A stretch of DNA of 64,000 bases, from assembly GCF_000003605.2 (NCBI RefSeq), contig NW_003116447.1, positions 1,067,173-1,131,172 on the forward strand, in the 5' to 3' direction. Under the pieces are notes generated by a model. That model was not told where the DNA came from and ran no database searches. It saw nothing but the letters and a program-made list of their open reading frames with translations. This document shows positions 3,049-61,990 of this stretch, one piece after another. Source of the stretch: Saccoglossus kowalevskii. Taxonomy: Eukaryota > Hemichordata > Enteropneusta > Harrimaniidae. The translations under genes and the position numbers were made by a program. Every line of letters starts with the position of its first letter. Position 1 is the first letter of the stretch.

Positions 3049-3628
3049 CCTGTGCATCCTATAGATAGTACTTATTAACACCTATAGACAACTGTAATCT
3101 ACCAATATAAGCATCTTATAGTCAATACCATGTATAAATATAGTATGTTCTATGTGCATCCGATAGATAGCTCTCATTACTACCTATAGACAACTGTAAT
3201 CTACCAGTATAAGCATCCTATAGTCAATACTATGTATAAATATAGTATGTTCTATGTGCATCCTATAGATAGAACTCATTACCACCTATAGACAACTGTA
3301 ATCTACCAGTATAAGCATCCTATAGTCAATACTATGTATAAATATAGTATGTTCTATGTGCATCCTATAGATAGAACTCATTACCACCTATTGACATATG
3401 TAATCAACCAGTATAGGCATTATATGGGCAATACCATGTGTAATTATAGTATGTTCTATCACCGTCCCTCGTGTTGAGGGACGGTGGTTCTATGTACGTT
3501 CTACAGATAATACTCATTACCACATGTATAGACATAATATGTTCTATAGGAATCCTATAGATATTATGGTAGTAATCCTATAGATCCTTACTACCTATAG
3601 AATAGTATGTTCTATAGGAATCCTATAC
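3049..3628. repeat. Tandem array, 102-bp unit, decaying at its right end
   Basis: The motif TATGTGCATCC recurs at 3151, 3253 and 3355, giving an exact 102-bp period. The unit also contains ACCTATAGACAACTGTAATC and ATAAATATAGTATGTTC. About four recognisable units run to roughly 3455. A degenerate part rich in CCTATAGA and GTTCTATAGGAATCC continues to about 3628. A 27-bp hairpin is inserted in the array at 3461-3487 (separate entry). Confidence 0.9.
3461..3487. mobile_element. Micro-hairpin insertion in the 102-bp array
   Basis: CACCGTCCCTC and GAGGGACGGTG pair perfectly over 11 bp around a 5-base loop (GTGTT). The hairpin is flanked on both sides by GTTCTAT, the sequence that is contiguous in the neighbouring array units. 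It therefore looks like an insertion with a 7-bp target duplication. Similar hairpins lie at 28264-28290 and 32902-32919. The mechanism is unknown. Confidence 0.65.
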
Positions 3629-6902: not shown

Positions 6903-7114
6903 TACTGTGGAATACTTTATTTTCGCTGGAATTAATCTTCGCTGAAAAGGCTTTTTGGGCATTTTGTATGGAATTTATTTTCACTGATTTTTGATAAGTT
7001 TAATGTGAAATATAGGAAAAAAAGTATATTCGCTGGATTTTATTTTCACAGAATCATCCCTTCAGCGAAAATAGCGAAAATAAATTCCAAGCGAAAATAA
7101 AGTATTCTACAGTA
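6903..7114. mobile_element. TACTGT inverted-repeat element, copy 1
   Basis: About 212 bp beginning TACTGTGGAATACTTTATTT and ending AATAAAGTATTCTACAGTA, so its ends are inverted repeats of roughly 25 bp. Internal hairpins use CGCTGGAATTAAT and TTCAGCGAAAATAGCGAAAA blocks. The terminal TA on both sides fits a TA target duplication. The same element recurs at 10022, 36231, 37952, 46582 and 60818. No coding capacity. Confidence 0.85.
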
Positions 7115-7119
7115 TTAAC

Positions 7120-10021: not shown

Positions 10022-10233
10022 TACTGTAAAATACTTTGTTTTAGCTGGAATTAATTTTCGCTGAAAAGACATTTTTGGTGCTTTGTATGGAATTTATTTT
10101 CACTGATTTTTGACAAGTTGAATCTAAAATATAGGAAAAAAGGTATATTCGCTGGATTTTATTTTCACTGAATCATTCCTTCAGCGAAAATAGCAAAAAT
10201 CAATTCCAAGTGAAAATAAAGTATTCAACAGTA
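10022..10233. mobile_element. TACTGT inverted-repeat element, copy 2
   Basis: Begins TACTGTAAAATACTTTGTTT and ends AATAAAGTATTCAACAGTA. It is the same length (212 bp) and orientation as copy 1 and colinear with it throughout, including the unique middle TTTGTATGGAATTTATTTTC. It sits in the presumed first intron of the EF-hand gene, near its 3' end. Confidence 0.85.
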
Positions 10234-10239
10234 TACAAA

Positions 10240-16479: not shown

Positions 16480-18980
16480 TAGTATACTGAGAATGTTTGA
16501 GATGCATTCGACAAGGATGAGGGCAATTTTCTACAATTATGTTTTATCATGTTAAAATAATTCGGCTTTACAGCATGTGTAGTGCAACACAAGTTTAACA
16601 AAATTGTGTGTTGTTAATTTCACGTTAAGGCAAAGTCATAACAAACACCGTTGCCAATGTTCCTAGAAATATTACAATTTTGCAAGGGAGGTTGATAGAC
16701 AGCAATTTGATCAATATATTTCAGCACCCACTGTAAGTGAATTTCTTGCACATTTGCTTATGATTTTGTATACATTTTTAGTCTGTGAGACTAACGCATA
16801 TGTTTCATACCTTTTTATTCAATTATGAATTGTTTTCATAATAAGATTCTGCACTAGCCAATTTGGTTGCTTAGGTACGGGTCATATAGTTGTTAATTTG
16901 CATAACAATGATGCTCATTGTGATAGCTATAAACGTCTACACTGTTCAGCCAGACTAGTTTTTGTGCTCTTGAATGAGTACAAGATAATAAAATCAATAG
17001 TTTTCACTGAAATAGGAGTTGATCAAAATATTGGGAATCCCTCTGTGATGATTACAAAATGAGACATTTTTAAAACCAGTGACCTTTAACCCCGTCAACT
17101 TTTGTCACATATCACAAAATAAATCTGCATAATATTTTTTATATTTATTTCAACATTTTTTAGCCAATATGATGTTATTTCAATGTCTAAGAAAGTTATC
17201 ATACAAAAATAGATAAAAATGTGCAAAATTTTGGTGCGAAAAATCATATCATTCAAAATCTCTAGAGTGACACTGCATGAATGTACATCACATTCAAAAC
17301 AATAAATGAAGTTTCCAGAATAAGAACTTTAAGCTGATGCATTTTTCCCAATTTTAAGAGCTGACAATTGCAATTTGTTGAGAGAGTCAACTTTACTGTT
17401 TAATTTGCACTGCTATAAATATTTGTGACACGATAATTTGATAGCATTTGCAGGGTTAATATTTCACAATAGTTACTGTGTTTCACTTATTGACTTAAAA
17501 ATCCCAATGCAATGTTCACTGCTACATAGTTATAGCTTTTCCCAACTAGTAAAAGTCTTGAAAACATGAAAGATAGCAGGTCACAGTATTTTAGGAAACA
17601 AAATATGCTAATACTCTAGTTGTCAGGACTAAAGCATCGTAGTTTTTGTGGCTCGTCAATTTGTTTAATATTGGTCCTAAGTGATGAAAATGGGTCTCAT
17701 GTGATGTGTTATTTATTTACATAAAATTTGAATGTGTTGCTACCAGAAAACTGTGGATGTTCGAAGCACCATAGTTTCCACCTCATGTTGTGTTTCAAAT
17801 GAGTACAACATGTGAAAAATACATTGTTTACATCGTATTTGGGACAATTGTGATGATTAAACATTTAACTTAAACTTGGAATGTAGCATAGTTTTTAACT
17901 CAATCACAATTCTAACTTTGAGCCTGAATTCTGCAATGTGCATGGAATGTATAACACGTGTTAAAAATACTACAAGTGACATCACATGATAATTTAAATA
18001 CACTTTTAACAAAATTTAAAAAAAAGTATAGTTGACGTAATTAGTTAGATTTAAAGAAAAACAAATTATGACAATTTTGATAAAAATAACTTGATGACAT
18101 CCGAATCACAGTGTCTATACATCATAACAGGAATTCTACGTAAAATGGCCTAAATATAGACTGTAAATAAATCATATAACATGCGATGAATACCTGAATG
18201 ACGTCAGCAAAGAACCCCACCAAACATCTACTATAAATGCTGGTACATGTACATAGGTAAAACAACCATCGCTATACCAACATTTGCGGCATACGTTACA
18301 ACTGAGGTCAACCATATTAATTTCATTTATAACTGAATTGTTTCAATAAAAACGTTATTAAGTTGAAATGTACAATTAAAGCTACTGTTAATCTGGCAAT
18401 GCAAAAGTATAAATATTGATAGATATTAAATACTACCTAGGTATATATTATACAGAATTCCACAGGTGATTTGTATATCAGGATTTCACTGATATTAAAA
18501 TATGCACATTAATAATGAATAAAATTTAAGCACATGCAATACTAATGACAATTATTAAAATGAGTGCTGCAACTTTCAAACCACAAAATATAATTTTTAA
18601 AAGTATCTAGGATACCATGAGAAAGAGATATGCAAAACCAGGTCCCTAATATAATCACAATCAAAGTACATCACAACTAAGTTGACATATAACAATTTTC
18701 CACGGAAACAAAACATTTATAGTAAAAATTAGTGTAGATATTTGAAGAACAATAATTAGTAAATGGAAAACTGGAAAAGACAACAAAAATCATATTTAAA
18801 TCATATTTATATGAAAATACAATAAAAATAACAAAGATTGTATTATATTTAAATAACAGATACTATATTTTATCATATTAATAGTCTGGTGTCATAGAAC
18901 TAATTTCAAATTAAATTAATGTACACTTTGATTCAACCCGATTTATTTTTGGAATATTTGACCCTGAATGCATATCTGGG
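16480..18980. other. Non-coding, very AT-rich
   Basis: Apart from the CACAAAATAAATCTGCATAAT-type dispersed repeat at about 17100-17250, I see no exon, RNA gene or array. Confidence 0.45.
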
Positions 18981-20960: not shown

Positions 20961-20969
20961 TTGTCCAAC

Positions 20970-22002
20970 ACCTAGACATCTGATTATGAACTTGTAAACA
21001 GCACCTAGACATCTGGTTATGAACATGTAAATATCACCTAGACATCTGGTTATAAACATGTAAACAGCACCTAGAGAGCTGGCTAAACATGTAAATATCA
21101 CCTAGACATCTGGTTATGAACATGTAAACAGCACCTAGACATCTGGTTATGAACATGTAAACAGCACCTAGAGAGCTGGCTAAACATGTAAATATCACCT
21201 AGACATCTGGTTATAAACATGTAAACAGCACCTAGAGAGCTGGCTAAACATGTAAATATCACCTAGACATCTGGTTATAAACATGTAAACAGCACCTAGA
21301 GAGCTGGCTAAACATGTAAATATCACCTAGACATCTGGTTATAAACATGTAAACAGCACCTAGAGAGCTGGCTAAACATGTAAATATCACCTAGACATCT
21401 GGTTATAAACATGTAAACAGCACCTAGAGAGCTGGCTAAACATGTAAATATCACCTAGACATCTGGTTATAAACATGTAAACAGCACCTAGAGAACTGGC
21501 TAAACATGTAAACAGCACCTAGAGAGCTGGCTAAATATGTAAATATCACCTAGACATCTGGTTATAAACATGTAAACAGCACCTAGAGAGCTGGCTAAAC
21601 ATGTAAATATCACCTAGACATCTGGTTATAAACATGTAAACAGCACCTAGAGAGCTGGCTAAACATGTAAATATCACCTAGAGAGCTGGCTAAACATGTA
21701 AATATCACCTAGACATCTGGTTATAAACATGTAAACAGCACCTAGAGAGCTGGCTAAACATGTAAATATCACCTAGACATCTGGTTATAAACATGTAAAC
21801 AGCACCTAGAGAGCTGGCTAAACATGTAAATATCACCTAGAGAGCTGGCTAAACATGTAAATATCACCTAGACATCTGGTTATAAACATGTAAACAGCAC
21901 CTAGAGAGCTGGCTAAACATGTAAATATCACCTAAACATCTGGCTATGAACCTGTAAACAGACCCTAGGCAGCTGCCTATGAACATGTAAACAGCACCTA
22001 GA
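20970..22002. repeat. Dimeric minisatellite, 64-bp period (33 + 31)
   Basis: Unit A (ACCTAGACATCTGGTTATAA + ACATGTAAACAGC, 33 bp) alternates with unit B (ACCTAGAGAGCTGGCTAAAC + ATGTAAATATC, 31 bp). About 16 dimers are present, with a few B-B neighbours (for example near 21490-21560 and 21660-21700). The first and last units are the most diverged (TGATTATGAACTTG; CTGCCTATGAAC), as expected for an array homogenised in its centre. Both units contain the palindrome ACATGT. Confidence 0.95.
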
Positions 22003-28110: not shown

Positions 28111-28263
28111 TTCTTGTTATGATCTGTAGCTTGCCGACAATAAGAAATACAATTAATTACGTGCCTTCAGATCTCTGATTTAATTCGAGATTTTCTATAT
28201 TTTAAATAACAAACGACTATAAAACGAAAAAAGTTAATTTAAACGATATTGCTTTCACCACAG

Positions 28264-28290
28264 TCTCTCTACAGTGAGGGACTGTGCTTT
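28264..28290. mobile_element. Micro-hairpin insertion, second member
   Basis: CACAGTCTCTC...GAGGGACTGTG folds into a stem of about 11 bp with one mismatch around TACAGT. It is flanked by GCTTTCAC on both sides, an 8-bp direct repeat. Its half-sites match those at 3461-3487 except at the fourth base and one stem position. Confidence 0.6.
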
Positions 28291-28759
28291 CACTCATCTG
28301 GGAACCCATCGAAGTCATTTCGACATCACGGACGCGCTTAGTCGCTAGAGGGCGTTTACAGGCTGGAAACTCGGAGGGTTGGAGGAAATTGGTACTATAA
28401 AATGTTTTTTTTAACAAGTGCATTTATTAGTAGTATTACATACTCCAACAAATTCAAAACCGCGTTAAACTAATGAATAAACCTAATCGCATACAAACTT
28501 CACTCTTTTCCTTTTAATTCAGTGACTTAAAACACTTTAGAGATTATGTAATTGGATTGCCAAGAATAGATTCTAAAACTGGTTGTACTGAGATTTATAC
28601 AAAGTTCAACCAGACTAACTATTCCAGACAGCTTGAAATGTGAATTCAGATCCCCATCACAAATACACTTTTACATCTTTGCACACTACATTTAAGTCTT
28701 TGCAGAGAACTTTGGTGTTATTCCATAACTTACTTTTTTCATTTTCCGAGTTTTCTTAT

Positions 28760-30000: not shown

Positions 30001-30230
30001 GATGAAATTACATGACCGACTGTAGTAGACCAAAGACATTTTCCAATGTCTTTGAGTAGGCCGACAGTTTAACAAGTTGGCCGACTGAACGCGAAAATGA
30101 AACATGTTTCTTGCCCACCGTCAGCTGTCGGTCGACAGTTGCAACATGGAGCTACAAGAAAGGGATAGTTCCATGGCTGCAACTACGCGAGCGATTTTAA
30201 TTAGCCGACTGCAGACGGTCGTGTGATTTC
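30001..30230. other. Cluster of CCGACTG/CCGACAG words around a short hairpin
   Basis: GACCGACTG, GGCCGACAG, GGCCGACTG, GTCGGTCGACAG and GCCGACTGCAGACGG occur within about 220 bases. CAAAGACATT and AATGTCTTTG form a perfect 10-bp stem with loop TTCC at 30033-30056. It could be a cluster of protein-binding sites or the remains of an inverted-repeat element. Confidence 0.35.
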
Positions 30231-32901: not shown

Positions 32902-32919
32902 CACAGTCGAGGGACTGTG
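32902..32919. mobile_element. Micro-hairpin, third and shortest member
   Basis: CACAGTC-GAGG-GACTGTG is a perfect 7-bp stem. The flanks TATGAAC and TAAGAAC differ by one base and would fit a decayed 7-bp duplication. It keeps the GAGGGAC wording of the two longer members. Confidence 0.45.
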
Positions 32920-33816
32920 TAAGAACGCAAATCTCACGATGCAATCACGAAATAAACACGTGCAATTGCGTAACCGTCAAAAAAAATAAAAGTCAAAATA
33001 ATTGTTCCCGTTCTTTATTTTATGAGTTCTTCGATGGTACACGCCCAACAACAATATAACATATAATGAATGTCTGGTCACGTAACGGTCAAATGACTTC
33101 AACTCAATTGTCCCTGGCAGTATTAAAGCACGACAGACTGTAATTGTTGTAAAAAACGCAGGCACGTCAAAACAGTCCTTCACTATTACGTATGAGCCAG
33201 GCAATTTAAGGATGGGCGCGGGCAACACACAGAGTCAATACGAAGTTACTTACAAGATTGTGCCTGATTGGCTACTTAACTATAACAGTAGACCAATCAG
33301 AGAGCATCTTATTTGTTGGCGGTTTTTTTAGGCACATCAGATTCTGCCGTGCAGATATGCTTCGATACAACTGAAATTTAGACACAGAGACTTTATTGGT
33401 AGTTTGCTAAACTATTCCCTAAGACTGGCCTTTAGTCTGAAGATAAATTTGGGATACTTGTATTAATTTTTTGAATTATAAACCTCAACTGTAAATATGT
33501 ACATTGTACTTTGACCAATATTCGATTCAAAATGGCCATCAGAGTAGGTTTGCAATGCAACACTCTGAGGAAAACAGAAAGTCGTTTCCATTTATTTAAT
33601 GATGAAACCTTCCACGCATCGAAATACCAATAATTTATACTGCTCTTATTTTGGGCGACATTTTAACTAGTTAGTTCAAGGGGTTAGCTCATTTCTGAAA
33701 AAGAAGCTGAAAATCACTGTTTATGTTGTTTACACGATTATTCTGTTATTTTGCCCCCCTTGTCTCCCGTAGAGTTTAGTCCAGTAAGTAAACATGCAGT
33801 TGAAATAGACCATGGA

Positions 33817-33850
33817 AGGTACTAACGTTAGTACCGTCCATGATTAGACC
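33817..33850. other. Near-perfect 32-bp palindrome
   Basis: CATGGAAGGTACTAAC is followed directly by GTTAGTACCGTCCATG, with one mismatched pair and no loop. The central 18 bp (GGTACTAACGTTAGTACC) are perfect. Function unknown. Confidence 0.85.
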
Positions 33851-36230: not shown

Positions 36231-36433
36231 TACTGTGAAATAATTTATTTTCACTGGAATTAATTTTCGGTGAAAATACTTTTTGGGTGTTTTGTATGGA
36301 ATTTATTTTCACTGATTTTTGGTGAGTTGAATGTAAAATATAAGAAAAAAGGTATATTCGCTGGATTTTATTTTTGATGAATCACTCCTTCAGCGAAAAT
36401 TAATTCTAAGCGAAAATAAAGTATTTTACAGTA
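36231..36433. mobile_element. TACTGT inverted-repeat element, copy 3
   Basis: TACTGTGAAATAATTTATTT to AATAAAGTATTTTACAGTA. Colinear with copies 1 and 2, in the same orientation, but missing part of the CAGCGAAAATAGC block. Confidence 0.85.
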
Positions 36434-36439
36434 TTTGAG

Positions 36440-37560
36440 AACCAGAGACAAAATTATTGTTAATCGATTGAATCATTTATGAAATTAATGGCAATTTTAA
36501 TTGTCTGTGACAGGTTACTGGACGTTCATCATTGTGTATGCATGGCAGGTTACTTCTCAGTCATGCTTTACTGCACATACCTAGGTCTTGTCGTACCTGT
36601 ACCTGTACATTGAATTATCCCTAGTCAAGTGTGACCATGCCCCTCCCTCTCCAGTCAGGTACATCACCTTGTCACTATTTCTAGAATATGTTCATGAATT
36701 CAATTCTGGGTTGGGAGATTATTACTGAATTATATATTTTCCTACATAACATTTAAAAACTTGTTGCTTTATTGTTTTACCCAAGTTCATATGAAGGATA
36801 CCGGATAATCATCTTTCCAAAATAATCACAGCACCATTCTGACCCAGGGTTTGACATTGGAATTTAATATGAATGCAATTGCAATCCTGTTGCAGTCTTA
36901 TAATTCATGCTAATGATTTTTTTTTATTAAATTCTTCTTCCGTAGTTCAAATTTCCAAGTATCTTTAACTAGATAGACATTTCCTACCATAGTTGCATTA
37001 TTGGAATCATGCACCTGCATTTATATGCAAACTGCATTTTATAATCAACAATATCTTGCACTGATTGATTGCGAGTATAATTTGTTGAAAGATGAAGTGC
37101 TAAACAAGCTAATTACAGCTCAGCTCAGTGAAGTCTATAGTAAATATAGACAAGACATCTAATTATCGTGTAACCTTAGTTTATGCCTTGGGCTGGAGAG
37201 GGCTAAAAAGTAAGCAACTCAAATCTGTTGACTTGTCACACACACATTCCAGGTCACTAATCCATTGTATGGAAATCCCATTCCCAGACTAGTCAATCAC
37301 GATTTTAATCACTTGAGTTGTAGAATATCATGTCCAAATCAGTTAAATACTTTGAAAAGGCCAAGTTATGCGGTCAGCAAATATGAAATGCCTTGCCATA
37401 TCCAAAGTACCCCCGGTAGTCTAGGGGAATAGGATGACCTTTGACTTGCACAGTTTTACACCTTGGTTTGTTTATGCATAGTTGTCAAATTCGCTATCCA
37501 TAGCTTGTGGGGTTAATTTGGAAACTACTAATACTTTGGAATCTAGGGAAATGTTTTAGA
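36440..37560 (+). other. Presumed intron of the plus-strand unit
   Basis: No exon or structured repeat recognised. Confidence 0.35.
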
Positions 37561-37951: not shown

Positions 37952-38130
37952 TGCTGTAGAATAATTTATTTTCATTATTTTTGCTGAAGGAATGATTTAG
38001 TGAAAATAAAATCCAGCGGAAATACCTTTTTCCCCTATATAAAAATCAGTGAAAATAAATTCCATACAAAATCCCCAAAAAGTCTTTTCACCGAAAATTA
38101 ATTCCAGCTAAAATAAAATATTTAACAGTA
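37952..38130. mobile_element. TACTGT inverted-repeat element, copy 4 (reversed)
   Basis: Runs in the opposite orientation to copies 1-3: GAATGATTTAGTGAAAATAA and AATTCCATACAAAATCCC come before CGAAAATTAATTCCAGC. It ends TTTAACAGTA. The first end is worn and about 30 bp are missing. Confidence 0.8.
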
Positions 38131-38968
38131 CTAAAACCTTGGATATTCTGACACCTGAATGGTGATTTTAAATTGTATTTTGTTTATTGCAATTTAGACG
38201 CCAAATACCACTATGCCTTTAAGCATAACCTCTAATTGTATGAAGCAAGTCTTTTCATTGTGTCAATGACATTCCATTCAAATTGCATTTTATCCTTGTA
38301 CCACAGGATAGCCGTACTGTGACACATGTCAGGCAGTAGAACCAATACCAGGACAGTAGAGATTAGCATCATAATTGGGGACAATCTCGAGTGTTTACCT
38401 TACATTTTGACTAAATGATCTGTGTGCAGATTATTGCTGTGCTAGAACACAAATATAATTATCAGTGAATTTCACTGTTTTGTATTTGTCTAAAGCATAT
38501 ATCTAGTCCACTTTAGTCGATGCAAGCTGAAAATGCGCAAGCTACCACTCCACATCACAGCATTGTGAGATAAAAAAAAATGTCCTTGTCATTCCTGTCT
38601 GGAAAATTTGTTGCACTCAAAATAACTCAGATATGTTATATTCAATTGTTCAAACTTAAATATTATATCAATAAAAAAAATTGAAAGTTTATTTGTAATT
38701 ATTAATGATATTAATAAAAAAGCTAATAATTATGTTGGGTACTGTACAAGTAAGCTACAGAAACATCTTATTTGTCCTTTGATCAGTGAAGAGCTTGAAA
38801 TATTTAGATATTCAAAATTTATGTTGAGAAGTTGTAGATTTTTGATGTCAGTGATAAAACATGCTGTTTAACATTGGTAATTGGGATTGTAATGATTAGT
38901 TTGTATTCCAATTCCATTTTCTATTAATAGCACATGCCATTATGTATATGTCAAAAGTGTCTGGTAGA

Positions 38969-46017: not shown

Positions 46018-46260
46018 TTAACCTTTTCACCCCAAGTTTCTCCTTTACGTCATAAATTCGCAAAAAGTCTAATTTATAGTCTGCACTTTGCTTCAGAAGA
46101 TTGGGACAAAATTGCAAATTTTTTTTAGTAAAAACTGAAAATTGACTCAAATTTTGTAAGTTGGCTCCAAAATTAGGATTCATTTCCAGAAATATTGAAG
46201 AATGTGAGAAAAAAAGTGAAGACAAATTTTGGCGATAAAGTCTGGTAGTGAAAAGGTTAA
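46018..46260. mobile_element. TTAACCTTTTCACC inverted-repeat element, copy 1
   Basis: TTAACCTTTTCACCCCAAG at the left mirrors CTGGTAGTGAAAAGGTTAA at the right; about 243 bp, non-coding. The interior phrases TATAGTCTGCACTTTGCTTC, AGAAGATTGGGACAAAA and AGAAATATTGAAGAATG recur in reverse order and orientation at 56949-57135. Confidence 0.75.
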
Positions 46261-46581: not shown

Positions 46582-46751
46582 TACTGTAAAATACTTTATT
46601 TTTCGCTTGGAATTAATTTTCGCTATTTTCACTGAAGGATTGATTCAGTGAAAATAAAATACATCCAATATAGCTTTTTTGCTATTTTACATTCAACTCG
46701 TCAAAAATCAGTGAAAATAAATTCCAGCAAAAAATAAAGTATTTCACAGTA
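46582..46751. mobile_element. TACTGT inverted-repeat element, copy 5
   Basis: TACTGTAAAATACTTTATTT to AATAAAGTATTTCACAGTA, with a shortened middle (170 bp) but the same inverted ends and TTCACTGAAGGATTGATTCA block. Confidence 0.8.
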
Positions 46752-46759
46752 ATAGAAGC

Positions 46760-47950: not shown

Positions 47951-47953
47951 CTA

Positions 47954-48656
47954 GGTTGTCTTCCCATGATGGTTTGCACACAGTATCACAGGTTGTCTTC
48001 CCATGATGCTTTGCATACAGTATCACAGGTTGTCTTTCCATGATGCTTTGCACACAATATCACAGGTTGTCTTCCCATGATGCTTTGCATACAGTATCAC
48101 AGGTTGTCTTTCCATGATGCTTTGCACACAGTATCACAGGTTGTCTTTCCATGATGCTTTGCATACAGTATCACAGGTTGTCTTTCCATGATGCTTTGCA
48201 TACAGTATCACAGGTTGTCTTTCCATGATGCTTTGCACACAGTATCACAGGTTGTCTTTCCATGCTGCTTTGCACACAGTATCACAGGTTGTCTTCCCAT
48301 GATGCTTTGCACACAGTATCACAGGTTGTCTTCCCATGATGCTTTGCACACAGTATCACAGGTTGTCTTTCCATGATGCTTTGCATACAGTATCACAGGT
48401 TGTCTTTCCATGATGCTTTGCATACAGTATCACAGGTTGTCTTCCCATGATGCTTTGCACACAGTATCACAGGTTGTCTTTCCATGCTGCTTTGCACACA
48501 GTATTACAGGTTGTCTTTCCATGATGCTTTGCATACAGTATCACAGGTTGTCTTCCCATGATGCTTTGCACACAGTATCACAGGTTGTCTTTCCATGATG
48601 CTTTGCACACAGTATCACAGGTTGTCTTCCCATGATGCTTTGCACACAGTATCACA
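47954..48656. repeat. Minisatellite, 37-bp unit, exactly 19 copies
   Basis: Unit GGTTGTCTTYCCATGATGCT + TTGCAYACAGTATCACA. 703 bases hold 19 units with no length change. Variation is confined almost to three sites: TTC/TTT after GGTTGTC, ATGAT/ATGCT, and GCACAC/GCATAC. Because 37 is not a multiple of 3, three units make a 37-codon super-repeat. One plus-strand frame stays open for 62 codons at a time (MMLCIQYHRLSSHDALHTVS...), which is a property of the unit rather than evidence of a gene. Confidence 0.97.
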
Positions 48657-49007
48657 GGTTGTCTTCTCATAATACTTATTTATGTCTGGCATAGAGCAAT
48701 AGATGAATGGGGTTCCTCTTACAATGTTGTAATTTTTCAGTATTTTCTGGTAAACCTTACTGTCCTTTGCTTGTATCCTGGCCCTGTCAAGTTGGCAAAA
48801 AATAAAGGGACAATCAGCTGCTCCTTTTTCATATGTGATTTTCAATTATGCAATAAAAAAACTTGTGTAGTCAGTCTGACAAGCATCATAGACTTCTGTT
48901 GTTGCCTACTTCTGCATTGATGTAGAAATCAGGTAACAAAGTTATCAATGTTGCCTTTCATTAATGTCCGTTAACACCAAACACCTAAATATAGTGGTTT
49001 CTAGTAC

Positions 49008-49119: not shown

Positions 49120-52000
49120 CATTCAGTCTGGATCCCCTTATGTCCAAGCAGGAAGATTTTATATAATTTATATCAAAAAACCTGTTTCTAAACGTATTTT
49201 GTATGCACTGTCAAAATTGATTCATCCCCATCTTGCATTGTAAATTTCCACCCCTCAAGAATATTGGACTGACCCTGAAATATTTTTCAAATAATATTGG
49301 TGTATCAGCTTGAGTTTTACAAGGCAGTGTCAACAATAACACCACAGCAAGGGTAAAATAATACTGCCATGTGCCATACTGTTCAGTAATAATGCCACAA
49401 GTGCTGCTAATTTAACACAATCTGCAAGAATACCCATATATAATGGCTTGACTGGACTCCTGGACTGGCTGATAGTAGCTGGCACACCAAAAAATAATCT
49501 ATTCTTACAGACGAGCCGGAACAGAATTTTTTTGTTCGTGTGGGGGAAATTTGGTTAGCATGGGGGAAAACAGAGGTGTTAATTCGAAAATTCATTGTCT
49601 TTTCCTGTTTGTGATTGGTCCTGGCAACGTTTGGGGGATCATCATGTAGCTCCGACTGTGAGAATACTTTAGAGGCCAAAGATAATTAAAATGTTCATTA
49701 ATATTTATTTGGGAGTGTAGGGGTCAAAGATGACTAATTACTGTGAACAAAAATCACATTGTGGTGTTTTATATACTATAAGGCCATTACTATTATTATG
49801 AGAAACAAGGTTATACATGGAATAAACTTTTATTTCATTTCTTCTCTCCGATCAAAGATCTCACTTCAATTCTTTGAGAATCACACAAATCTAATGGAAA
49901 TTTTAATTAATAATTTTATTTTTTTCTTGCCCTCCTCAAAAAAATTGCCTTATAAAAACCCGAGAAACAAGGAATAAAAAAGTCTGGCCTAAACCTCTTG
50001 AAAATAAATTTTGTAAGTATTAAGGTGCATTTCTTCTATTGGCATCTGCCCCAAATCCTATGTAGATTAATAGACAATCCACAGTTTGGGTTAACAATCA
50101 GGCTGGCATACATTACATCTGTATATAGTAGAGGGGTCACCATATGGTCACTGTTGTATAGTGCACTCTAATAAATAAATGCTAATCTCCTTGTACGAAT
50201 GTCAGATATTTCAGAGAAAAGCTGGTTTTCCGATATTTGTCCCACCCCGAAACGGCCTTGAGCTTGATCCTTCAAAGGTCACACATCCTGGCACTCTGCG
50301 AGTATTGTTGTACTTCACCTTTGAATCTAACATTGTTTCTGCTCAAATTTTGTAGAATTTTTTGAAAATGACTTCAGGTCTAAATAAATACCAATTTTGA
50401 AAAAAAAAATTATGTACTGTTTTGTGGATGCATTTCGGGGAGGGGGGGTATTTAGGAAATGGTTAACCCCAGGAAGTACCAGGATGTATGACCTTTTTAG
50501 TGGCCATATTTGATTAAAACGTTAACAACTCATTTTCTTCACATGCCTAAAGCTTTTTTCTTTCCCAATTTCATGCTCAAATTACCTTTGGAAATATAAT
50601 ACCATTACTCCATATATAAAATAAGCTAGACTATACTGATTCCTACCATTAATAATTACATATTTACTATTGAATAGTGCTAACAATTAGTTGTATAGGC
50701 CAGCCAGGGTGTTCATTTTTAGATAACAGCAGGCCAAGTTGCCCATCTATTCAGTAATTTTTACCTAATCTAAACATATATCATGTAGGTCAACTAACGA
50801 GGTATCTTTTTTTTGATTCCATGGACAGAGCGAACCATTAGATGTAGTACATTTAGTAAAATCAATACAGTTTCTCTGGTTTAGAATCATCAGCGAGAAA
50901 AATAGTTAAAATCTTTACCTGTGTTTGTCTAATATGAGAAAGAATAATCGTCCTTTATTTCATGCAAATTATTTTAGTCATGTGATCACTTTTGGGCCAG
51001 TCAGATAATTGTATTACTACTTTACAAAGTTGGGTTGGGAAGGTCTAAATATATAAAATTTGAAAACTACTGGTATGTAAGGTGTAATTTTAATGACATG
51101 CAGTAGTGCATAAACTCACTAGCTTGATTTCTTGAACACATCCTCCTGCTGAACGCCTTCATGGATAGCCGGAATAAATGGCAAACACTGGCATTAGTAG
51201 GCGATGAGTTCTCATATTTATTGATTTCACGTCATTTTGATATTAACTTGTTGATATTGACAGTTAGGATCAAAAGTGTGCATTCAACTGCTCTATTATT
51301 CTGTTCTGTTCTTCGTTTGGTCTTTACAACAAAATAACATCATACAATTTTGAAACTTGCTAATAACATTACTGACGGTGTTTAGCAGATCTCTAAAAAA
51401 ACTGGTCACTATCAATTTGTAAACATTCTAAGGTTGAACATTCCTGCTTTTATTCCCTATGCAGTTCTTGCTATGGTAATTCTTTAAATAACTGCTTGCT
51501 TGTGCTAAAATATTTAATTTGACGAATTCAAATTGGAATAAACATGACTAGATTATTATTTTTATGTGGATTTTTGTCTGTATTTAAATGATATTTAAAT
51601 CATATTAATTCTTAATTTGTTATTGGGGAAAATTAGATTGAATTATTCTCTGGGTTTACTTCTAGCAGATTTTATGCTGCAAGACCAGGTTTCAAATTCA
51701 CTGGTTTGGGAAAAAAACAATGTTTATTCTATTGATAAAATTGAATGTTTTGAGGGTTTTGATTTAACGAATTCAGCTGTTTATGAAATATGTGAAATTG
51801 AAAATAAAACCCAGTGAATATTAATCCATATACAATGTAGTATACATGTTTACACCTGTTTTGTTTGAGAATAAGTTTAATAAATATTGAACGAGTTTCA
51901 TCGGTGATGAAAACAGAATACGACAGTCTTAAATATAACATTTGTACATGTAAATTAGCAAAGGTAGGTCAGGTCAGCTTTTACACTTTGAAAGTTTTTT
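49120..52000 (+). other. Presumed intron, no recognised features
   Basis: AT-rich, with a G-run near 50440. No exon-like segment with matched splice signals. Confidence 0.35.
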
Positions 52001-52002
52001 CA

Positions 52003-52180
52003 CCTTTCACAAAATAACCCTGCATAATGTTTTTTTTTTCCCCTGAAATAACTGTAGCCAATAGAAGATTATGTCAATTTGATCTGAAATCAACTGGGAC
52101 ATTTTTGAAAAATACATAAAACCTAAAAAAGTTGCCCCAGCATTTTGTTGAAAAAAATTTGTATTGAAAGTGTTAAACAA
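52003..52180. repeat. AT-rich dispersed repeat (CACAAAATAA family)
   Basis: CACCTTTCACAAAATAACCC + TGCATAATG, then GTAGCCAATAGAAGATTATG + TCAATTTG, parallel to 17100-17250 and 53972-54125. Diverged; limits approximate. Confidence 0.45.
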
Positions 52181-52666
52181 CTGATTGTCTTGTATAAAAA
52201 TACTATCTGCGATCACAGCAAAATGCATTAATTTTCAAAGCAATTGTATTCTTCAAATATACAAGTTTTTCTCTACAAACAATTAGAATAATACAGTGAA
52301 GTGAAAGTGAAGCACATTTTTGTATCTTCTCTTCCTGATTATGGAAATGTTATGAATACAAATGGAGGCCGTATTTGAATTTATTTCTAGTTGTCCATTT
52401 ATCTTGGTACTTGTATAAATAAACTCAGTTATGCAATTTGTATGATGTATTACAAGATTTAAGTAGTCAATTTCATAATTGAATTATTATGAACTGTGCG
52501 TGTATCTATTTAATACATCGCTAATGGTTTATTTAAATAGACTGACCTCGTACAGTAAAGGTCAAATGCAGTTCGCAGTGACAGGAGATTTGAAACACGG
52601 TCACAAATATCAGTTCGCTTCAGCTCAGAAATATTTTAGAATTCTAATAATGTAATATCTTTCAAG

Positions 52667-52683
52667 ATGGCTGACATGTATTG
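52667..52683 (+). CDS. Possible start-codon exon of the plus-strand gene
   Basis: TTTCAAG-ATGGCTGACATGTATTG is followed by GTAAGTATT, a consensus donor. The ATG has A at -3 and G at +4, and an in-frame TAG lies 24 bases upstream, so the reading M-A-D-M-Y-(W) would be a genuine start. Exit is in phase 2. If the exon begins at an acceptor it may start at CGCTTCAG|CTCAG (about 52623); otherwise this is an alternative first exon. AAGATGGC also resembles a YY1 site, which is often found at starts. Too short to identify a product. Confidence 0.3.
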
Positions 52684-53971
52684 GTAAGTATTTGACTGTC
52701 TGGAGGTGAAATGTCAGATTCTATCTCTTTATAAATGGGATGTTTCTGCTCCCTGGTTGTTCGAACTCATTAATGTCATCATTTATTATAAGTTGAGTAG
52801 AGAAACTTATCTAAGTTCAACAAACTGCTGTAATCACCATGGCGATAATGGCAATTACTAGATGGTAGATTTTATGTGATGTCTGGTGTAACCATACCAC
52901 ATCTTGTGAAAGATCACCAATATTATCCAGTATATATTGTGCGAGGTTGACAGATGTATTGTATGTTATTTTTTAAGGGCATGTTCAAGCTGATTAAATC
53001 AAAGAATTGTTTTATTATTTGGTCATACTAGAGCCTCTTACCGGTACTATCATCGCCATATTTTTCTGAACACCGAAACAGCAACATTGCCAGCTAAGTT
53101 ACTGACTGGTTTGCTCTGTGCACCTGGAGATCGCTGCGTGATTAGAACAAGTTATTTCAAACCAAACTCAACGAATGTCATTATAGTTGGAGATAATGAT
53201 GTAATTTCCTTTAAATTTATTTTATTCAATCGTGTAAATTGCTATATAACATCAAAAAGTTATCCAAACAAAATGCATGTACTACCAGTCTGAAATGTCA
53301 GAACATATTCGCTAGTGTGCCTGGTGCATGTCCAGACGCTCATAAAGGCATGCATTTAGCCAAATTGCTAACAGTGGTTTGAACTAACCAGTTCTAATCA
53401 TGTAACAATCTGGAGACACTAATAACAAACCAGCCGGCAACTTAGCTGGCAATGTTGGTGTTTTGAACAATATGACGGCGACAGTAAAATACACTCCAAT
53501 TTAAAAAATGCTTTATCTTGTCTGTTAGAAGCGCATCTCAAACTAAAATTTGCAATAATTGTAAGGCGGATCGTTTTTATGATTTATTATAACCATACAC
53601 ACTCAATTACATGAGTGAATATGCTACAAATAAAGAAAACGGGTTTTGCATAATTAATCACAACTTGCCAATGTGAATATTACAGAAATTGGGATTAATG
53701 AAAATCTGTTTGTAAAAATGATAAGTATTAGGGATTTGAGTATATGCAGGTAGGATTAACAAATTATTTTAGAATGGTTATAAATAAATTGGGTGAGTGC
53801 TTTTGTTGTATGCTGACGTTAAGGATGAATTAACTGGTGACTATCGTGGTTAACTTTTGAGTGATATCGTCATAGAGATCTTTTATTCTGCATAGTGGGA
53901 CCTCATTTCAAGTGGAAGAAGGGAGTGGGAATTTTGTTGATCTTGGTAACACTTTGACCACCAGCTTTTTG

Positions 53972-54125
53972 ACCCTTCACAAAATATTTTTTTTTTTTAT
54001 TCTTCGTAAATTGTGATCATGCCCTGTTGCCACTCGAAAATTATATCAATTTGGCACTATTAAAATGATAAAAAATTCATAAATTTATTAAAGTTGCTTT
54101 AAAACATTTATGGTGCTAAAAACAG
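53972..54125. repeat. AT-rich dispersed repeat (CACAAAATAA family)
   Basis: GACCCTTCACAAAATATTTT and GTTGCCACTCGAAAATTATA + TCAATTTGGCAC parallel the copy at 52003. Limits approximate. Confidence 0.4.
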
Positions 54126-55637
54126 TTAATGGTTATTTGGCTTCAGCATTGATCTTTACTAATTGACAGTGTTTTATGTTTCTGGGGTTATAGTTGTCAA
54201 CATCTAATAACATGGCTGGTCAATTGTCAAAGTAGTATTGATTGACTTTGGAATGCACAACTATTGAAAGTGAACTGTAAATAGGCAGGGCAATGAGGTA
54301 AAACTCACCCATCCATGTTATGATGACGCCATATTCTATACATGCACAAAACAGTTGATTTCAATGTGAAAGAGGGCTGTGCTATAACTGGAGGTTGTTT
54401 GATTATCATAGTTTGACAGGGTGATGTGATGTGCCTGACAGACAGACAGGTTAGTTCTTGTAACACTTCAAGACTTGACACTTGTGTGTGTTGATAATGA
54501 TGAGTGGGATAGGCCTGAAGTATGCAGTTGACCTCGCTTTTTTAAGTTTCGAAATTGGTGCTACAAATGCCGCGTCTTGCATGCTGTCTGGATTTATATA
54601 TAGAGTTGTAAAAACTATTTGAACTATAGCACGCAAACTGACCTCTGTTACTGTCTTGTTTACTGAACTCATTTTTTTACTTTTATTTGTGGCCTGTGTT
54701 TTGAGTAGATTGTTCCAGTGTGGCGCATTGCAAGTTTAAAAGTCTTTTTAGGGTGAAATCTTTCAAAGCAATCTCCAATGCTCGGTCCTTTGCTCTATCT
54801 TTTTGTGTACAAGTATAACTTGTAGGAATATATATATATACTATTGGATCTAGGCTTTGTCTGTTTTGAACATAGGAATGTGAATGTTTAGGGGGTCAAC
54901 CCTTTGAAATCAGGGGGGGTGAGTGTGATCTGGGCAATTTTTTTCTTTCATGGTCTCTTATCTGAGTATTTTAATTTTTCTTGACTGTGCCAACATTTTT
55001 CTCTTGCATTATCTACCATGTTATTTTGTTTACATTGCATATTAGTTTTAACAAGTCTTCCAGCCTCCCCCTCCCCCATGATTCAAATGATCAACCCCTT
55101 AGTCTTGAGCTATACTTTAATGTTCATGGCATTCTGAAAAGTCTTTTCAACATGCTAATAGGTTGACAAATAACAGAAAAGGTCATGCTTTTCATTCACA
55201 GGTGAAACGAAGGTATTTCAGTATTACATTCTTCTACAAATGTACAGCCTTACTCGAGCAATGTCATAGTTGACTTGGGTTTCATGTTTATTCAAACCTT
55301 AACACCAAAACAGATTTCAGCAGGAAGGCCCAACAGAAGTTTCTAAACAGGAAACAAAATATGCACTCTGTAAGTTGGTTAGATTTGGTGACTGCAATTG
55401 TCTGGCAAACAAAAGGTATGACTGGGTAGTTTGAAAGTTTAGTTGCCACTCAGTGTTCAGCACTGGTCCTCTATGGTGTTATAGAGTAAAAACAAAGTTT
55501 AGAAGAGATGGGTTCAACCAGTTGACTGTGTAATTTTTGTTCTAAGGTCTCATGCCACTAATCAACCAATGGCTGTTCGTTCAATTTAAATGCCTTTCAC
55601 GAACCAATGACATTTTTTTAAAATATTTTTTTCTCAG

Positions 55638-56948: not shown

Positions 56949-57422
56949 TTAGCCTTTTTACCATCAGACTTGCCCAAATTTGTCTGCATTTCTTTTTGTA
57001 TTCTTCAATATTTCTTGAAATGAACCCTAATTTTAGAGCCAGAAGACAAAATTTTAGTAAATTTTCAGTTTTTACTCTAAAAAAAATTTGGCTATTTTTG
57101 TCCCAATCTTCTGCAGGAAAGTGCAGACTATAAACATGCCCATTTTGTGAACATGTTGTGAAAAGGGAACATTTTAGAGGTATTTTTTACGGTCCATTGA
57201 AGCACAGCATTGCCACTTGCACCGTTTTGGGGACTAAAATTCATGTATATCATCTGTGAGGCATGCAATAAAAATATTACAACCAAAGAGAACAATTGCC
57301 AACCATTGTTTTTTATATTCATGCACAAATGTATATATATTCCAGCCAGTAATATATCAAAATACCCTATAGTCAAATATGGCTCAGTTTTATGCCATGT
57401 GTACTGCGGTTGAAAAGGTTTA
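56949..57422. mobile_element. TTAACCTTTTCACC element, copy 2 (reversed, longer)
   Basis: TTAGCCTTTTTACCATCAGAC at the left and GGTTGAAAAGGTTTAA at the right are inverted. The first 190 bases are the reverse complement of the 46060-46260 interior, ending at GTGCAGACTATAAAC. The remaining 270 bases are not in copy 1 and may be the fuller element or an insertion. Confidence 0.6.
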
Positions 57423-60817: not shown

Positions 60818-60993
60818 ATTTTATTTTTGCTATTTTCGCTGAAAGAATGATTCAGTGAAAATAAAATAGTGAATATACTTTTTTTCCTATATTTTACTTG
60901 TCAAAAATCAGTGAAAATAAATTCCATACAAAACATCCAAAAAGTCTTTTCAGTGAAAATTAATCCCAGCCAAAATTAAAGTATTTTACCCTA
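60818..60993. mobile_element. TACTGT inverted-repeat element, copy 6 (reversed)
   Basis: CCTGTGGAATATTTTATTTT, GAATGATTCAGTGAAAATAA, then TAATCCCAGCCAAAATTAAA + GTATTTTACCC. Same order as copy 4; both ends worn. Confidence 0.75.
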
Positions 60994-60999
60994 TTTTCA

Positions 61000-61990
61000 A
61001 AATCAAACCCATATACTTTTCTTCATAATTTTTTAAAAACTTGTGATGCAAATTATGTAGGAAGTGGGAACAAGTGAACAAAGAAATTACCGGTATAAAA
61101 AAAATGCATAAAATTGCTACACAAACTGTAAATGTATTTTGTTATTGTTTATAACGTTTTACAGCCTCTATCCCTGGATAGACTGCTCTGGGATCAGTAA
61201 AAGCTCATGATCAGTACTTGCAAGTTTGTCCATCCATATTATATGATCCGACTGTAATCCACCTGTGCTGGTTTGCAAATCACAAAAGTCCTTTAACAGT
61301 TGACGGCTACTCTCGCTCATCTATATTAACATTGCATTGGCTTGGGGATTGTATCTCTCTATGGGTCATATTATAAATATGTGATGAATCAAAGTTGAGG
61401 CGCAAAGGGAAAGATCAAATCATCCTGTATCATAATCAATGGGGCATGAAGCATGTACTGGCATTTCAGTATCTCGGTTGTATGGCAACAGAAAGTTTAT
61501 TATTTGATGGTGTCTGAGGAGGAATACTGACAAAACTTTTATTGATCAGGTTAAAACCATTTGGAATTTGGGGATGTGAAAAAAATCTGTACAGAAAAGA
61601 AAATTCTTATAGCAAAAAAAAATCCTCTTTTTCCCCTGCGTTTGAGATGCTATGTCATTTTCCCTCTTTGGTCTATACTCTGACTGAACATTGCCATATC
61701 AAATTACCTGCACTTTCATTTGCATGGACATTTTGTCTTGTGTCTATGCTAGATAAAATCTACGTAGCAGTGTACATGTATATTTAAGATGTAGATATAA
61801 ATTGGATATTAAATAACTTAACAGACACTGTCTGAATTTAAATAATTTAGATAATTTTTAATGACAGGTGATCAAAGACTGAATTAATATTGACTTGTAT
61901 ATGTAATGGCGCATAAAAATAATGTAGGGTGTGGTTTAATTGGTTTATTCGATTAAGTTGGTTCATCCGGTTACTATATTTGAAGGTACA
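61000..61990 (+). other. Presumed intron or intergenic, nothing recognised
   Basis: AT-rich; no matched splice signals or repeats. Confidence 0.35.

Follow-up and report, generated by a model that had tools for sequence, protein, structure and literature searches.

The window, meaning the whole 64,000-nt stretch of Saccoglossus kowalevskii DNA analysed here, corresponds to C993:1067173-1131172 of a 572-Mb assembly with 4830 contigs. Three short hairpins with a common half-site had been noticed in it by the original prediction, and all of them are present, with their positions corrected to those in Table 1. The first hairpin lies where the fourth unit of a 102-bp tandem array ends. The units start at 3051, 3153, 3255 and 3357, and the sequence downstream of the hairpin is a diverged continuation of the array. 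The three joins between these units show the uninterrupted sequence, confirming that hairpin 1 interrupts the array, and the heptamer GTTCTAT flanks the hairpin on both sides as described. Hairpin 2 has a perfect direct repeat as claimed; it is 7 bp and not 8 bp long, because the extra G belongs to the hairpin as its last base. The flanks of hairpin 3 were correctly said to differ at one base in seven. The flanks and the joins of the array support the proposed insertion origin with a target duplication, a filled site and an empty site. The arms of hairpin 1 are joined without filler, with the ends of a transposon on contig C1630 (see below) as the reference sequence. Hairpin 2 was divided into its arms by eye.

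The observation is more general than the original prediction had it. Scans that were independent of the named stem revealed three further palindromes in the window, starting at 30031, 30145 and 33811, and several families of such hairpins occur genome-wide. At the six window sites, the 7-bp repeat is perfect in two and has one mismatch in four. The palindrome at 33811 fits two arms of 17 nt that overlap by a 2-nt CG microhomology.

Table 1. Hairpins, flanking repeats and tandem array in the window, and two elements with the same ends elsewhere in the genome.
Feature	Position	Strand	Remarks
102-bp tandem array	3051..3459	+	empty site GTTCTATGTGCATCC at three unit joins
7-bp target duplication GTTCTAT, left copy	3453..3459	.	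read directly
Putative footprint 1 (hairpin 1), 27 bp	3460..3486	.	11 nt of left end CACCGTCCCTC + 16 nt of right end (CACCGTCCCTCAACAC read inward)
7-bp target duplication GTTCTAT, right copy	3487..3493	.	perfect match to left copy
7-bp target duplication CTTTCAC, left copy	28252..28258	.	
Putative footprint 2 (hairpin 2), 28 bp	28259..28286	.	~13 nt of left end (one mismatch) + 4 nt filler + 11 nt of right end
7-bp target duplication CTTTCAC, right copy	28287..28293	.	perfect
Probable footprint of another family, CAAAGACATT ends	30031..30054	.	flanks AGTAGAC / AGTAGGC
Probable footprint, CATGGARCTA ends	30145..30175	.	flanks GTTGCAA / GCTGCAA
Putative footprint 3 (hairpin 3), 18 bp	32902..32919	.	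7 nt of left end + 11 nt of right end; flanks TATGAAC / TAAGAAC (6/7)
Putative footprint of CATGGAMGGTAC family, 32 bp, loopless	33811..33842	.	flanks AATAGAC / ATTAGAC
C1630 element, 7942 bp	C1630:10113-18054		CACCGTCCCTCAACACCCGGTTAAGAAACG at 10113, its reverse complement ending at 18054
Short non-autonomous element, 318 bp	C532:541895-542212		ends CACAGTCCCTCTATCAC, perfect 7-bp duplications ATTTCAC

The window and 30 second-order Markov sequences were compared for palindromes of 12-44 bp that have CA...TG ends, a stem score of at least 5 and a 7-bp repeat matching at 6 or more positions. The window contains seven of them, compared with a mean of 0.83 and a maximum of two in the Markov sequences. 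The seventh, a 13-bp palindrome at 61822-61834, was set aside as a probable chance occurrence. No clear excess over the 30 Markov sequences was seen in the window for flanking repeats of 5 bp (5/5 matching, 2 versus 0.57, largest 3), 6 bp (5/6 matching, 3 versus 2.6) or 8 bp (7/8 matching, 0 versus 0.33). When the stem score was raised to at least 8 and any ends were allowed, a perfect 7-bp repeat was found at two window palindromes, hairpins 1 and 2, and at none in eight Markov sequences. With one mismatch allowed, the window gave four and the eight Markov sequences 0, 0, 0, 2, 0, 0, 0 and 1.

The unbiased scan was also applied to the window together with 20 sampled 10-kb stretches, 264 kb in all, of which 77 kb are N. 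Five palindromes with a stem score of at least 8 had a perfect 7-bp repeat, two of them the window's own, and all five had CA...TG ends. With at least 6 of the 7 positions matching, 11 palindromes were found, eight with CA...TG ends and three without, against one in a single Markov copy. Four CA...TG hits lie outside the window (L048:8040-8061, L049:1128-1152, L049:3143-3170 and L050:1877-1908), all on the window's own contig, C993, which contributed six of the stretches. The 14 stretches from other contigs, in a sample that is partly N, gave no CA...TG hit. A scan of a viral sequence collection for the hairpin gave no match.

Other repeats were seen in the window. A dispersed AT-rich family (TTTTCGCTGAA / AGTGAAAATAAA) occurs in both orientations at 6903-7115, 10022-10234, 36231-36443, 37963-38131, 46600-46754 and 60818-60996. 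An inverted pair, about 83% alike and about 10.8 kb apart, occupies 46073-46214 and 56989-57134. One tandem array has a 37-bp unit with 19 copies at 95% match (47953-48665), another a 64/159-bp unit (20969-22002). A candidate element of 4966 bp at 49206-54171, with CACTGTCAAA/CACTGTCAAT ends and the flanks TTGTATG/TTTTATG, was set aside as probably due to chance, many such pairs having appeared in the scan.

The genome-wide search for the stem, as proposed in the original prediction, was done with the pattern CACNGTCYCTC-N(0-15)-GAGRGACNGTG and returned 402 places in the 572 Mb, while the reversed control returned 0. The flanks were fetched for 40 of the 50 distinct places listed out of the 402. 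A 7-bp repeat is perfect at 29 of these 40 sites and matches at 6-7 positions at 34, whereas between different sites only 15 of 1560 flank pairs match at 6-7 positions. The proposed flanking repeats of 7-8 bp thus hold for 7 bp; for 8 bp the window has no clear excess. In the hairpins L015 and L039, palindromes with a doubled arm, it is the outer flanks that repeat perfectly (TATGTGG and CGCCAAT), and when these are counted the numbers rise to 31 and 36 of 40. The remaining four of the fetched hairpins (L006, L010, L041 and L043) have no good 7-bp duplication.

Two further stems were searched in the same genome. The CATAGACCCTC stems of the CATAGACC family occur at 138 places and the CATGGANGGTAC stems, the family of the window palindrome at 33811-33842, at 52, each with a control of 0. 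Together, the three stem families amount to 592 hairpin places, and the flank check behind this figure covers 40 of the 402 and a few others, the flanks of the CATAGACC and CATGGA families being known from a few copies in the window and in L048-L049. Judged from the lengths alone, the CATAGACC hairpin is exactly 27 bp at 24 of the 50 places listed, a mode that would suit a favoured microhomology, a scar within a larger repeat or a mobile scar alike. The CATGGA family has 32 bp at 30 of the 50 places listed, which fits 17 + 17 nt overlapping at the self-complementary end CG. Among the CATAGACCCTC hairpins, contigs with nearby numbers share lengths (C1340/C1345, 36 bp; C1415/C1419/C1427, 28 bp), and C1482 has three 30-bp copies about 3 kb apart.

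Functional sites, such as RNA hairpins or protein-binding palindromes that are conserved in place, would be expected to look like palindromes with common half-sites. Yet these hairpins are flanked by 7-bp duplications, one of them sits in a single unit of a tandem array while its sister units are empty, and hundreds of copies are scattered over the genome with centres that differ where they were read. We give such a function next to no credence.

For the target motif, 40 sites (34 from the genome and 6 from the window) were joined with one copy of the 7 bp each, which gave TnnRTYWRAYnnA. At the third base beyond the duplication, 61 of 79 letters are T, or A on the opposite side (p ~5e-16 against the base composition). 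Both strands of every site were counted, so the symmetry of the motif is imposed; the enrichment is not. An early idea of a GT at one end of the duplication (or an AC at the other) held for only 17 of 34 sites in the larger sample and was replaced by the palindromic motif. According to excerpts of PMC4168063, Galileo, 1360 and P also have palindromic target motifs reaching beyond their duplications of 7-8 bp, ANAGT..ACTNT being that of P/1360. Read side by side, the conserved outer letter appears to have the same spacing here as in the P/1360 motif. The letter itself is A/T in P, 1360 and Galileo according to these excerpts, in contrast to T/A in this genome.

The 50 listed hairpins of the 402 were then decomposed against the terminal repeats beginning with CACAGTCCCTCTATCAC and CACMGTCCCTCAACACC. 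Of the 100 arms, 98 measure 17 nt or less; 17 arms end at 16 nt and 16 at 17 nt, and the two longer arms reach 18 and 19 nt. The 19-nt arm has a 2-base overlap with the opposite arm, and the single extra matching base of the 18-nt arm may be filler. As the search pattern demands about 11 nt per arm, shorter remnants escape this count. A minority of the hairpins seemingly has a third end type, CACAGTCCCTCCACAAG, and matches the two reference ends only over 11 or 12 nt. A length of 33 bp is seen in 12 of the 50 hairpins and 34 bp in eight, after which 35 and 36 bp occur once each. The hairpins of the C1630 family end at CACCGTCCCTCAACACC, which is 17 nt long and lies within a terminal repeat of 30 bp.

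Longer hairpins with the CACAGTCCCTC stem were found at 66 places (35-62 bp), those of 35-37 bp overlapping the set of 402. The letters were obtained for 12 of the 50 listed, and most of these 12 consist of two arms of at most 17 nt around filler or a copied piece of an arm. In L084 (11-61) the filler is a copy of the inner arm. In L015 (88-146) and L039 (87-132) a second copy of the arm follows its terminal CAC(C), as though the 3' tail had served as a primer at the start of a terminal repeat. An arm copied twice, or filler taken from an arm, is expected of templated end joining. Blunt junctions, microhomologies and templated filler were all observed among the hairpins. At the 50 listed places, the centres vary between copies of the same stem with few repeats, so that the shared interior and the movement as a unit that mark a MITE were not found.

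Transposase genes were searched with PF21787, the RNase H domain of P/THAP9-type transposases, which matched 13 times in this genome and not once in 14 control genomes. The best match belongs to the C1630 element, which is bounded by perfect 30-bp terminal inverted repeats. The original prediction had raised the possibility of a larger element with the same ends and a transposase, and this element with its P-type domains is one. Its frames contain, in this order, PF21787 (E 1.1e-27), PF21788 (E 6.7e-5; 23.7 bits, just under the cut-off of 24.8) and PF21789 (E 1.2e-6; 28.9 bits, cut-off 24), and the long frame has a weak match to the P transposase structure 6p5a (E 0.0048). This set of domains agrees with the RNase H-like transposase with a GTP-binding insertion domain that marks the P superfamily. 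No THAP domain was matched in the six open frames scanned, which were read without modelled introns. The flanks of this 7.9-kb copy, AGTGGGT / GCAATAC, show no matching duplication. Inside the element, a 351-aa open frame on the opposite (minus) strand, L078:7535-8590, has no Pfam match; it could be a passenger gene or come from a nested insertion.

Of the other candidates for parent elements, the short C532 element has both ends and a perfect target duplication. On C2789, two ends 2405 bp apart agree over 21 bp, with the ends alone read, and have no matching flanks. At the second transposase locus, C2039, one end was seen: CATAGACCCTCAACAAA, the head of the CATAGACC scars, lies on the 5' side. 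The other 11 of the 13 transposase matches have no clear pair of ends within flanks of 1.5 kb. Exact copies of the 11-nt scar heads CATGGAAGGTA and CACAGTCACTC lie no more than 1.5 kb from P-type transposase matches, at L073:685 and L069:1268 (= L072:991); they may be there by chance or may be ends of further parent elements. For the CATGGA and CAAAGACATT families no element was seen. Elements sharing the ends of the hairpins were found for two end types (CACMGTCCCTC), and a single end for a third (CATAGACC).

Taken together, our results indicate with a probability of about 0.93 that the hairpins are excision footprints of DNA transposons of the P superfamily (P/Galileo/1360/THAP9-like), left by a 17-nt staggered cut followed by end joining. 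We favour this reading because of the 7-bp repeats, the 17-nt limit, the P-type transposon with the same ends, the spacing of the target motif and the architecture known from flies. The element would insert at a weakly palindromic target and duplicate 7 bp. On excision, the transposase would cleave one strand at each boundary of the element and the opposite strand 17 nt further in, within the terminal inverted repeat, and each chromosome end would then keep a 17-nt 3' tail of the same sequence. Polymerase-theta-type end joining would unite these tails directly as blunt joins, through short self-complementary words, or by way of filler for which the tails serve as template. The usual product would be a palindrome of at most about 34 bp with one copy of the 7-bp target on either side, and joins with filler could exceed this length. 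The palindrome would arise because the two tails are inverted copies of one sequence. Since the inverted ends already give a palindrome, the hairpin-handling recombinase considered in the original prediction is not needed.

The 17-nt limit of the scars suggests that the parent elements are cleaved with a 17-nt stagger and 3' tails. We also infer from the sequences which strand is cut where, how and by which enzyme the break is repaired, and which element copy left which scar. For the P transposase, the excerpts of PMC7776569 describe two offset cuts, one strand being cleaved at the 3' end of the element and the other 17 bp into the terminal repeat. After excision of P in flies, the 17-nt tails are rejoined through microhomologies, by blunt joins or with insertions that are in part templated, and the products in Table 1 of PMC2895639 consist of two stretches of up to 17 nt with filler between them and a duplication on either side.

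The original prediction had taken the hairpins for extreme miniature elements that move as such, a larger element supplying the transposase that binds the 18-34 bp palindromes themselves, cuts them out and reinserts them. Such elements would leave target duplications and an empty site, as does any insertion, and the lengths that recur in the CATAGACC and CATGGA families would suit them, but the 32-bp mode of the latter would also follow from its self-complementary end. Against them stand the varying centres, the filler in L015, L039 and L084 and the fly-like architecture. Moreover, the arms are prefixes of the terminal repeat that stop at about 17 nt although the repeat of the C1630 element runs to 30 bp, and the P transposase binds sites inside its element (PMC7776569, excerpts) that are absent from the hairpins. 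This proposal is thus very probably wrong. Equally improbable is a variant in which some scars, notably the 27-bp CATAGACC class, have by now become mobile, with truncated repeats of 11-17 nt sufficing for the transposase. To our knowledge, they would be smaller than any known cut-and-paste element.

Another cut-and-paste system with hairpin intermediates (hAT, or Transib/RAG-like) might also leave footprints or micro-insertions, and the CAC at the start of the arms resembles the RAG/Transib heptamer. The duplications made by hAT and Transib are 8 bp and 5 bp, respectively, whereas those found here are 7 bp, and the element with these ends encodes P-type transposase domains. A role of such a system seems to us hardly conceivable.

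Read as P-type excision scars, the hairpins would record, site by site, how the transposase cut 17 nt inside the element and how the host repaired the break. In any genome with P-type elements, the sequence alone could thus be used to test whether the unusual 17-nt stagger is shared by the whole superfamily and which outcomes of end joining occur in the germ line. The scars also caution against taking every small palindrome with a target duplication for an element or a regulatory site. Our literature search brought up no report of a natural genome-wide set of P-type scars, which holds for the partial texts within its reach, most subscription papers lying outside it.

The 318-bp C532 element is a MITE in form, very short and with terminal repeats and a target duplication, whereas the hairpins read here lack a shared interior and are not elements. 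The zebrafish Pdre2 and THAP9 elements (PMC10983969) resemble the elements described here in having a P-type transposase outside insects, non-autonomous deletion derivatives and short terminal repeats starting with CA, but differ in their 8-bp duplications and 13-bp terminal repeats; the excerpts of that paper contain no genome-wide set of scars. Galileo (excerpts of PMC4168063) shares with this genome the 7-bp duplication and the palindromic motif beyond it, whereas the terminal sequences of Galileo and 1360 are different, and footprints do not appear in these excerpts. A close likeness exists to the excision junctions of P{wa} in Drosophila melanogaster (excerpts of PMC2895639), with the same order of duplication, at most 17 nt per repeat, a blunt, microhomology or templated-filler junction, and duplication. 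Those junctions have an 8-bp duplication and were induced in the laboratory from one known element in flies lacking Rad51, whereas the scars described here have 7-bp duplications, are natural and belong to several families. The mechanism is already known, and in this genome it is met at a natural, genome-wide scale outside the laboratory fly.
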